IMG/VR virus record: IMGVR_UViG_3300034158_000023
Span: 124,001-188,000 of that record
Strand: one strand, 5' to 3'
Length of the DNA stretch: 64,000 nucleotides
Source: a virus
Shown here one piece after another: positions 23,369 to 26,320 of the stretch (the stretch's first letter is position 1; each line of letters begins with the position of its first letter). The notes below the pieces were generated by a model. It worked only from the letters and a program-made list of their open reading frames with translations, was not told the origin of the DNA and did no database searches. A program made the position numbers and the translations under genes.

Positions 23369-23809
23369 TTATAAACAAATGTGTATTTTATTTTTAATGG
23401 ACTCTAGGTATTTATAGAGTAGTGGTTTTACTTCAGTTGGGTAATCTAAACCACCGTTACCACAACCTAAAGGAGGGATAGCTATATCGCAGTCTCCTAA
23501 CTTATCAAGATTGTCAACTAACTTAGTACAGATAGTTTCAACCCATTCTAACTTAGAACCATTAGACCAATGGTCTTTTGTTGCAACCAATAAAATAAGC
23601 TCCTTAGAGGTAATGTAATAAGGTAGTATACTTCCAGGTTTCATTATACCTAGGCGACACTTCTCTTTATAGTTGCGTAAGATACTTGGGTATCTTTTTT
23701 TCGCTTCTAATGCTATCCCTTTACCCATGACGCCTACACAGTTAACTGTTACCAGTTTAATAGGCGCTGGATGTTCGAATATATTACTTACCCCTTCGGA
23801 AACTATCAT
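23369..23809 (-). CDS. DarG/Poa1-type macrodomain (ADP-ribosyl hydrolase-like)
   Basis: The 146-aa protein is a single macrodomain. Residues 23-35, NCVGVMGKGIALE, form the ADP-ribose loop. Residues 77-81, TKDHW, match the TK.HW of DarG, in which that lysine is catalytic. Residues 112-122, PPLGCGNGGLD, are the distal phosphate loop. DarG-type macrodomains remove ADP-ribose from thymidine bases in DNA placed there by the toxin DarT. Related Poa1/TARG1 proteins hydrolyse ADP-ribose 1''-phosphate or ADP-ribosyl-glutamate. In a phage, protection of its DNA from host DarT is the most attractive role. The start ATG overlaps the stop of the upstream frameshift extension (ATGA), so translation is coupled. 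Confidence 0.88.
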   Translation of the reverse strand: MIVSEGVSNIFEHPAPIKLVTVNCVGVMGKGIALEAKKRYPSILRNYKEKCRLGIMKPGSILPYYITSKELILLVATKDHWSNGSKLEWVETICTKLVDNLDKLGDCDIAIPPLGCGNGGLDYPTEVKPLLYKYLESIKNKIHICL

Positions 23810-24267
23810 CGGTTAAGTTCCTTCTCCAAATCATTCAATGCAGAATTTGGATTTGGTTTAGTTAAATCAATGGCGCACAATCGCAGCATTTCATCTGCTG
23901 AGGCTCTACTTTGCTTTAAGAACGTAGGGAAATCTACACCGAATGCATCTTTCACTTTTAGATTCTTAAATCTAAGCATATACTGAAACTCTAAGGAGTC
24001 AGACATTACGTCTTCCTTAGGATGGAAACCAACCCTACTTAAAGGATCGACTCGTTCAGCTAAGTCATGGTCGCATATGCCGTAGAGTTTATCATAGGTT
24101 TCATTTATGATAACTCTACTAGCTAAAGCTGACACTGGAACTTTAATGGCAGCGAATAATGTCTTCGCTACCTGACCCTCAGCAACATGACGTCCAAACT
24201 GTTGACTTCGTACCGTATCTGCTACGGTAGTTTGGTCAGCAGATAAGACTGCTGCATTAGAAAAAAA
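23806..24267 (-). CDS. Frameshift extension of the 526-aa protein (-1 frame; 665-aa fusion)
   Basis: This frame is open without interruption from the slippery run at 24267-24261 to the TGA at 23808-23806. Its first internal ATG (24135) has no ribosome-binding site. Shifting -1 on the T7 run joins residue 514 of the upstream frame to 151 further residues (beginning SNAAVLSADQTTVADTV) and gives a 665-aa protein. The extension is soluble and mostly helical. The 0-frame stops after only 12 more codons. Either the long form is made by programmed frameshifting, or one base is missing in the assembly. The motif phase argues for the former. Confidence 0.75.
   Translation of the reverse strand, partial: FFSNAAVLSADQTTVADTVRSQQFGRHVAEGQVAKTLFAAIKVPVSALASRVIINETYDKLYGICDHDLAERVDPLSRVGFHPKEDVMSDSLEFQYMLRFKNLKVKDAFGVDFPTFLKQSRASADEMLRLCAIDLTKPNPNSALNDLEKELNR
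24211..24267 (-). promoter_or_regulatory. Candidate programmed -1 ribosomal frameshift site
   Basis: On the minus strand, a T_TTT_TTT slippery heptamer (24267-24261) sits in the exact phase X_XXY_YYZ. A 6-base spacer follows, then a hairpin CAGCAG-TCTTAT-CTGCTG (24254-24237), then a second hairpin TACCGTA-GCAGA-TACGGTA (24229-24211). TCTGCT of the first can alternatively pair with AGCAGA in the second, allowing a pseudoknot-like fold. The 0-frame stop lies in the second hairpin. Confidence 0.75.
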
Positions 24268-25802
24268 GTGCTGACTCCATCGATAGGATGAACTACACGA
24301 GTTTCTCCATTCTCTGTTACTAACCAGTCATGGCAGTTAGGGCATTCGTAGTTAGGGATACCCACAAACGAAACTAAAGACTCGTTCATGAATTTCTCAA
24401 TGCCTTCTACGATAGCATTAACGAAGTCATCGTTTTCTGACCAGATACCTAACTGCTCTTCGATTGCTTCATCGTCAGATACCTCTAACAGATGATCACC
24501 TACGGTCATTTCAATACGATCAATCCAGTGACCATAGTTACGCAGGATAGTAGCAATACGCATGTCTGTATAGTGCTTAATGCGCTCTGCTTCAGACAAC
24601 ACTGTACCAAACGCCGTTTCTGTACGATGTTCTAACTCAGTCGCCCATCGCGCACCAGAATGGATGTGCTTAGCCACACTAGGTACACTAAAGAACACTT
24701 TAACCGTATCAGTCAAAACGATATGGTTGTTAGCGTAGTAGAACTCATCTTGATACGATTTAAGATCAGCATCACTAACCTTACCTGGTCTAGTAATGAT
24801 CTTAAGTTGGTTAGAGTTCAACATGTTGTGATCTACAACAACCATCTTAGCTACCAGCACTTGACGTCTTGCCACGTGTGTACATTTGTTAGGATCACTA
24901 GTACAAGGTTGTGCAAATGGGAAACCTGCACTGTGGATACAGTGAGCCATATACGCAGCAAGGATTTGCATGTCTGGTAAACGAACTGCTTCCAAGAACT
25001 TCTCGTAGTCGTTACCTGATTCAATACCTACTGAAACACAGTGATCGTAAATGAAACGAATCAAGTTACGGTTAATGGCAAAAGAGTCATTAGAGAAAAT
25101 AGCACCGCGTGTGTTGCGCCCTAACAAGTTACGATCAGATGCAATCAAACGATCCAACTCTACCTGTTCAGATAGCGGAGGCGTACGCAGCGTTACAGAG
25201 AAACCAGAACCCCACAGAGGGAACGAGTTAGCTCCGCCCATGCTAGTCATAGCACTCATTTGCAGAACAGCTTCACGACCTTTTAAAGTACCACTACCGC
25301 TAGGAGCACCAGGCACTAGTTTACGTGGTCCAAAGATAGTACCAGCATAACCAACAGAGTTAACCCAATTAGCTGTAGGTCTAAATGCCGCAGCGTTTAA
25401 ACCATCACTAACAACGTTAGAATAGCTAGCAGCGTTAGATAAATGACGTGACCACTCGGTAGTCTCAGCAGTGGCGTCTAATTTATCCCAATCTGTAGAG
25501 ATATGCTCTAGGACGTTTAATGAGGTACCTAGAATACTTACTGGTGGTACGTCTTCATATGAGTCAAACGTTTTACCATTAGCATCTGTACGAGCAACAA
25601 TAAAGTTAGCAGCAACCGCTACTTTTGCACCAGGAGGTTGAGTAGGCACATATGGAGCTTTAGGAGCGATCTCTTCTTTAGGTGCTTCAGGTTCCTCAGG
25701 GATAACAACAGCTGTCTCCTCTTCAGTAACTGGCACACTAACAACTTCTTGTTCATCTACTGGGATACCAGTAGTTCCAGTGGTAGTTGGATTATTTTCC
25801 AT
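24222..25802 (-). CDS. Unknown 526-aa protein (0-frame product of frameshift gene)
   Basis: The N-terminal ~60 residues are Glu/Val/Pro/Thr rich and look disordered (EEETAVVIPEEPEAPKEE). The rest is a folded domain of mixed character with many aromatic and Asn residues. A CPNC pair (near residue 490) may be half of a metal site. I do not recognise the family; a virion protein or large structural component is possible. Only 12 residues follow the slippery sequence in this frame. The start overlaps the end of the upstream 148-aa gene by 11 bases, so the genes are coupled. Confidence 0.82.
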   Translation of the reverse strand: MENNPTTTGTTGIPVDEQEVVSVPVTEEETAVVIPEEPEAPKEEIAPKAPYVPTQPPGAKVAVAANFIVARTDANGKTFDSYEDVPPVSILGTSLNVLEHISTDWDKLDATAETTEWSRHLSNAASYSNVVSDGLNAAAFRPTANWVNSVGYAGTIFGPRKLVPGAPSGSGTLKGREAVLQMSAMTSMGGANSFPLWGSGFSVTLRTPPLSEQVELDRLIASDRNLLGRNTRGAIFSNDSFAINRNLIRFIYDHCVSVGIESGNDYEKFLEAVRLPDMQILAAYMAHCIHSAGFPFAQPCTSDPNKCTHVARRQVLVAKMVVVDHNMLNSNQLKIITRPGKVSDADLKSYQDEFYYANNHIVLTDTVKVFFSVPSVAKHIHSGARWATELEHRTETAFGTVLSEAERIKHYTDMRIATILRNYGHWIDRIEMTVGDHLLEVSDDEAIEEQLGIWSENDDFVNAIVEGIEKFMNESLVSFVGIPNYECPNCHDWLVTENGETRVVHPIDGVSTFFLMQQSYLLTKLP

Positions 25803-26238
25803 CTTCTTTAACCTCTAACGCCATAGCGTAATCAGTGATTTGCGCTGCTAATGGTAATGCAGTGTTTTGATAATTCTCGATCCAGCTCACATACTGCTGG
25901 GATAGTTCTAAGCAGTTGAGTTGATATGTCTCTGCTGAGTTAGTTTTTTCTATCTCAGGAAGAGCTAAGTGGATCTTTGCTAGTTCAGCTGAAGCAACTT
26001 TAACTACTTGGGCATACTGAGGTGCCAGCTTTAACACTTCAGGGATAGCTGCCATCCCAGGCACAGTAATGATAGGGGCTATCTCTCTGGCTGATACCAA
26101 TAATTGTTCAGCAGTGGAAGCAAATACTTTTAACTCGCGTTTAGCGCGCTTAGTAGTTTTATTGTGTACGAAGTTAGAGCCACTTACTTTAATGGCATCT
26201 CGTAACGCAACAGCAGCGTTTTTATTTTGTTTGTTCAT
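25792..26238 (-). CDS. Unknown helical protein, 148 aa
   Basis: This is the first gene of the minus-strand run. I chose the ATG at 26238 (CTGGAAAA before it) rather than the Met 12 codons upstream, which has no ribosome-binding sequence. The N-terminal ~35 residues are strongly basic (Lys/Arg/Asn); the rest is Ala/Leu/Glu rich and helical. No motif recognised. Confidence 0.75.
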   Translation of the reverse strand: MNKQNKNAAVALRDAIKVSGSNFVHNKTTKRAKRELKVFASTAEQLLVSAREIAPIITVPGMAAIPEVLKLAPQYAQVVKVASAELAKIHLALPEIEKTNSAETYQLNCLELSQQYVSWIENYQNTALPLAAQITDYAMALEVKEDGK

Positions 26239-26320
26239 TTTTCCAGATTCCCGTAAATTGGCAATTGTATACATATGGTAAGTAGATTGAATAATTTATA
26301 ACACATTAAAGGAGTACCTC

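Follow-up and report, generated by a model that had tools for sequence, protein, structure and literature searches.

Probable -1 frameshifting on a conserved T-run yields two lengths of a predicted tail assembly chaperone in phiKZ-like jumbo phages

Introduction

Near the 3' end of a long gene in a phiKZ-like virus lies a run of seven thymines, shortly after which the reading frame closes while an overlapping frame stays open. Is the run a sequencing error, the boundary between two genes, or a site at which ribosomes change frame, and what protein would be made there? The locus lies in a stretch of 64,000 nucleotides (the window) from a virus record of 215 kb, in which the genes for RNA polymerase and DNA polymerase are phiKZ-like. 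An earlier sequence-only reading proposed that a programmed -1 frameshift joins the 526-aa frame to the next one. This proposal is borne out by an in-phase site and an open -1 frame in all relatives collected here. Judged from these sequence comparisons, the T-run near the gene end is very probably a programmed -1 ribosomal frameshift site. Taken jointly with a role of the product as tail assembly chaperone in phiKZ-like phages, to which the predicted fold of the short form and analogy point, this reading has a probability of roughly 0.8.

The phiKZ gp77 / PhiPA3 gp074 family, to which the gene belongs, is found throughout the phiKZ-like jumbo phages examined and is nearly always annotated as hypothetical. 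Its C-terminal domain is split off in annotations as another hypothetical gene. One frameshifted chaperone of two lengths would give the family a testable function, and would make the annotation correctable in up to some 190 phage records.

Organization of the locus

The features of the locus, all on the minus strand, are as follows.

25792..26274, minus strand: preceding gene, which overlaps the 526-aa ORF at its start; in the position of phiKZ gp78 / PhiPA3 gp075, assigned by position only
24222..25802, minus strand: 0-frame ORF of 526 aa, the short form; predicted N part of a tail assembly chaperone (phrog_4585, tblastn, AF2, Foldseek)
24267-24261, minus strand: slippery heptamer T_TTT_TTT, in exact -1 slip phase in the sequence; an in-phase T-run is present in all relatives
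24237..24254, minus strand: hairpin 1, CAGCAG/CTGCTG, 6 nt past the heptamer (minimum-energy fold; not family-conserved)
24211..24229, minus strand: hairpin 2, TACCGTA/TACGGTA, overlapping the 0-frame stop codon (minimum-energy fold; not family-conserved)
23806..24261, minus strand: -1 frame extension, the C domain of a putative 665-aa long form (phrog_12109, tblastn, 27-member alignment)
23369..23809, minus strand: macrodomain gene, a neighbour outside the product (PF01661, E 1.5e-6)

The slip-site context on the minus strand reads AGC ACT TTT TTT CTA ATG, and the heptamer has the exact slip phase that the sequence-only reading gave it. The 0 frame stops 12 codons past the heptamer. The -1 frame is open for 151 codons from the slip and then meets TGA at 23808-23806, which makes a long form of 665 aa in total. 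The first start codon (ATG, GTG or TTG) in this frame is a GTG at codon 44. The reading frames agree with the products of 526 and 665 aa proposed earlier, both being encoded by one locus, and they also agree with the proposed coupling to the macrodomain gene, whose ATG at 23809 overlaps the -1 frame stop as ATGA and whose product matches PF01661. Besides the window, Goslar (L018 3019-3579) has an annotated macrodomain gene, and the other named relatives read have none annotated.

The 526-aa ORF matches phrog_4585 with an E-value of 6.8e-79, and the -1 extension matches phrog_12109 with an E-value of 4.6e-15. The upstream gene, of 160 aa, has no PHROG match. The neighbours of the locus are the macrodomain gene, genes for RNA polymerase beta parts and helicase genes. 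No recognised tape measure gene adjoining the frameshift gene was found, so the position usual for a chaperone gene is not seen here. A place just 5' of the tape measure gene is usual and not defining; in T4, genes 27 and 28 separate 51 from 29.

The split frame in related phages

The 526-aa protein is a homologue of PhiPA3 gp074, which the PhiPA3 record equates with phiKZ gp077 and 201phi2-1 gp136. The -1 domain is a homologue of PhiPA3 gp073 / 201phi2-1 gp135. A tblastn search with the 526-aa protein gave 190 phage records. Junctions were first surveyed at 50 loci, namely the window, 23 named jumbo phages and 26 IMG/VR contigs gathered with a family alignment of three sequences. Two very distant phages, Aeromonas D9 and Klebsiella YC1, were added later, bringing the relatives to 51 (25 named and 26 metagenomic). 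The set is partly redundant, with Psa21 present twice (L010, L040) and a few near-duplicate contigs. Close relatives were sought in IMG/VR with the window proteins and in genome contigs with the -1 domain, in both cases with no match; the phage is too diverged.

At all loci examined (the 50 and the two distant ones), the 0 frame ends 8-45 codons past an in-phase T-run, and the -1 frame is open through the run and for 114-164 codons beyond it. Both halves were searched against the related phages, and in none of the 51 relatives are they fused in one frame; the split and the slip phase recur in all. The 0-frame products of the family are 475-705 aa long, and the alignment of the -1 domain has 27 members. 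The slip site is not annotated in the related giant phages, and the downstream CDS annotated in the named phages starts inside or past the frame overlap. In the Erwinia phage PhiEaH1 (L024 1-1400), the 0-frame homologue is found right where the linear record begins, and no CDS is annotated for it.

Fold and profile comparisons of the predicted tail assembly chaperone

No Pfam model matches the 526-aa protein of the window, and PF12322 matches one of 27 family members (E 0.0079). An AF2 model of the short form, built with 27 sequences, reached a pTM of 0.78. The Foldseek matches of this model beyond its own family are annotated as 'baseplate hub assembly protein, T4-like' and 'baseplate hub assembly chaperone', with E-values of about 1e-5 and target TM scores of 0.51-0.54. 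Against solved structures, the model has no meaningful match. Local hhalign comparisons with T4 gp26 and gp51 gave weak probabilities of 18-28%, although among 12 T4 proteins compared these two scored highest. In the record of one jumbo phage, the 0-frame gene is already called T4 gp26-like.

For the -1 domain, Pfam gave nothing consistent. Modelled alone with AF2, the domain has low global confidence (pTM 0.41), and the significant matches of the model are small jumbo-phage proteins, including the downstream ORFs annotated in Psa21, Eowyn and Goslar. The hhalign comparison with the tail domain of gp51 aligned the two towards their C-terminal ends at a probability of 5%, which is not significant.

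A bridge to other chaperones is provided by the T4-like phages. In T4, gp26 matches PF12322 and phrog_150, as does gp51, whose added C-terminal stretch matches phrog_634. In the cyanophages S-RIM4 and S-RIM50 and the KVP40-like vibriophage PVA8 (L062, L063, L065), gp26 ends in TTT TTC-x-stop, and the -1 frame immediately past this slip site encodes the gp51 tail domain (phrog_634). Thus, T4 has two paralogous genes where these T4-like phages slip, with the same Phe-Phe motif. The records of the three phages give the tail domain as an ORF of its own, named 'baseplate hub assembly catalyst' or hypothetical. A gp26-like gene of the Escherichia phage ECML-4 (Ackermannviridae; L064 2444-2617) ends ATT TTC ATT TAA, without a clean T-run; the -1 frame that follows, about 57 aa long, looks gp51-like, and no CDS is annotated there.

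Of these two proteins, both listed among the hub assembly chaperones, gp51 is required but does not occur in the particle (PMC3004832). That they are tail assembly chaperones is not new, being credited in PMC12846349 to Vladimirov, Gautam and Davidson 2022. In the 201phi2-1 record, detection by mass spectrometry is flagged for gp138 and not for gp135-137, a pattern that is no more than compatible with a chaperone absent from the virion.

The likeness in fold, together with the analogy to lambda gpG/gpGT and T4-like gp26/gp51, suggests that both forms act as tail assembly chaperone in phiKZ-like phages. A real frameshift could also serve a protein with a different function, such as one in transcription or in the phage nucleus. 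The nearby RNA polymerase beta-part and helicase genes would suit such a function, as would the weak sequence similarity to the T4 proteins and a model that resembles no solved structure. We consider this unlikely, since several fold matches lead to T4-like hub assembly proteins, and the recurrence in T4-like phages of a Phe-Phe T-run at the C-terminus followed by a -1 domain would be an odd coincidence. Also unlikely is that the two-length protein is a different regulatory pair, with a ratio set by the bare T-run and perhaps tuned by a phage factor on the ribosome.

Selection on the slip codons

The heptamers at 49 loci are T_TTT_TTT (29), T_TTT_TTC (12), A_TTT_TTT (4), G_TTT_TTT (2), T_TTT_TTG (1) and A_TTT_TTC (1). 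These loci were chosen by the pattern TTT TT, and one surveyed locus, in a distant Vibrio phage (L015), falls outside the pattern with only CTT TTT at the corresponding place. The T-run is 6-8 long in most loci; 12 loci have a run of 6, and a single locus has one of 5.

Phe is encoded by TTT in 38% of cases in the 0-frame genes overall. All 49 pattern-selected loci use TTT for the first Phe codon of the slip site, whereas none of the 24 other Phe-Phe pairs in the same genes begins with TTT (Fisher p 8e-20, a value that is only indicative because the sequences are related, yet their divergence is great, with identities to the window mostly of 20-29%). Essentially all homologous 0-frame genes have the slip-site copy of in-phase TTT TT, and the motif occurs just once elsewhere in their 27,376 codons. 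The codon preceding the slip Phe ends in T at 42 of the 49 loci, while synonymous use predicts 17.6. Conservation of the slip site and this codon bias strongly imply selected -1 frameshifting.

The phage RNA polymerase might itself slip on the T-run and produce mRNAs with an altered number of bases. Homopolymer runs of 6-8 in most loci would permit this, and phiKZ-like phages have their own multi-subunit RNA polymerases. However, the dozen loci with a run of only 6, the one with 5 and the CTT TTT of L015 speak against it. Runs this short would be unusual for polymerase slippage, and slippage of tRNA-Phe on T_TTT requires no more. Transcriptional slip is very improbable as the source of the long form.

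The annotation of a downstream CDS inside or past the overlap in the records of named phages treats the -1 frame as a small gene of its own, which would need an independent start or re-initiation after the 0-frame stop. In 33 of the 49 loci, however, no ATG, GTG or TTG lies between the slip and the first conserved Phe of the -1 domain, so that the conserved protein region, which starts at the slip site, begins 5' of any start codon. Where -1 frames do contain start codons, a Shine-Dalgarno sequence is rare, and the first start in the window comes as late as codon 44. With strong selection on the slip codons in addition, an independently started gene is very improbable. A homopolymer error that split a single true frame, conceivable for an error-prone T7 run and already argued against in the sequence-only reading, is refuted as a general explanation by the selected TTT codons and by the split frame and T-run in dozens of genomes sequenced independently of one another, 201phi2-1, PhiPA3, SPN3US and Goslar among them.

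RNA structure downstream of the slip site

In the window, the two hairpins that had been described from the sequence are part of the minimum-energy fold and come after a 6-base spacer. This fold has an energy of -22.8 kcal/mol (z -3.10), and one of 200 shuffled sequences was as stable. Goslar also has a strong downstream fold (z -3.05), as do a few other loci. Across the family, the 60 nt downstream of the slip show no excess of structure, with a mean z of -0.11 against -0.39 in control windows of the same genes (one-sided p 0.96). Shine-Dalgarno-like sequences 5' of the slip are likewise at the family-wide background level (10% versus 10%). Conserved stimulators of either kind, hairpin or Shine-Dalgarno, were rejected on this lack of a family-wide signal. 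Slip site and hairpins thus differ in conservation: the slip site recurs in all relatives, whereas downstream folding does not stand out from control windows. Because downstream structure is not conserved, the hairpins of the window are at most a lineage-specific stimulator; like the strong folds of Goslar and a few other loci, they may stimulate slippage locally or have arisen by chance.

Proposed mechanism

Slippage driven mainly by tRNA-Phe on the T-run would be the simplest mechanism common to all loci. At the G_ and A_ heptamers, presumably only the second of the two tRNAs re-pairs perfectly. Most ribosomes would finish the 526-aa short form, and a minority, a few percent, would slip back one base on T_TTT_TTT as tRNA-Phe re-pairs on TTT, giving the 665-aa long form with its 151-aa C-terminal domain. 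By analogy with lambda gpG/gpGT, the part common to both forms may cover the tape measure protein, to which the less abundant long form may bring tail-tube subunits. The slip rate would set the ratio of short to long form. We infer that the slip is ribosomal and its rate useful, and the protein partners and the chaperone role have the same standing.

The slip site is not described in the titles, abstracts and passages covered from the phiKZ/Chimalliviridae frameshift and assembly-chaperone literature, a coverage that extends to sources other than Vladimirov 2022. The earlier statement that no frameshift gene is described at this locus holds in that none was found for phiKZ-like phages, but the arrangement itself matches the known lambda G/GT kind (PMC5009743). 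Slip-site conservation, the predicted fold of the short form and analogy point to a tail-chaperone frameshift in a phage group for which no such description was found.

Comparison with known frameshifted chaperones

In phage lambda, the binding partner of gpG is the tape measure protein, and tube subunits are recruited by the rare gpGT (PMC5009743). This chaperone frameshift is reviewed in the same article, citing Xu, Hendrix and Duda 2004. As proposed for the phiKZ-like gene, one lambda gene gives short and long forms via a -1 slip near its 3' end; neither lambda product stays in the virion. The lambda extension is of comparable size, about 150 aa, and the slip sequence is GGGAAAG, where the phiKZ-like loci have a T-run instead. 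Unlike in lambda, the phiKZ-like gene does not lie just before a recognised tape measure gene. The phiKZ-like 0-frame product (475-705 aa) is also far larger, and no sequence similarity between the two was found.

In Vandenendeviridae/Andersonviridae, too, the chaperone gene has at its end a T-run for a -1 slip; the sequence GTTTTT is invariant there (PMC12846349), and the -1 frame is open in every genome. Two phiKZ-like loci have G_TTT_TTT as well. These are different phage families, however, whose gene precedes the tape measure gene, and the likeness is one of arrangement. The E/E' genes of phage P2, in its tail operon, likewise slip by -1 on a T-rich heptamer, but the genome context differs and the likeness is one of slip type. 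The P2 heptamer is TTTTTTG. For the E/E' frameshift, PMC5009743 cites Christie et al. 2002.

The closest comparison is with the T4-like phages. The phiKZ-like short form resembles gp26/gp51 in the predicted fold of the 0-frame protein and in a C-terminus with a zinc-ribbon-like CxxC and Phe-Phe, and the T4-like cyanophages and the KVP40-like phage share the slip on TTT TTC into a -1 domain. In contrast, additional N-terminal sequence sets the phiKZ-like short form apart, and its -1 domain is much longer, at about 150 aa versus 55-60 aa, with no detectable similarity. T4 itself differs in using two paralogous genes with no slip. On this comparison, phiKZ-like phages would join the lambda-like phages, the T4-like phages and Vandenendeviridae as lineages that make the chaperone by a slip, and about 50 natural slip sites without a shared stimulator provide material for learning how a bare T-run sets a protein ratio.
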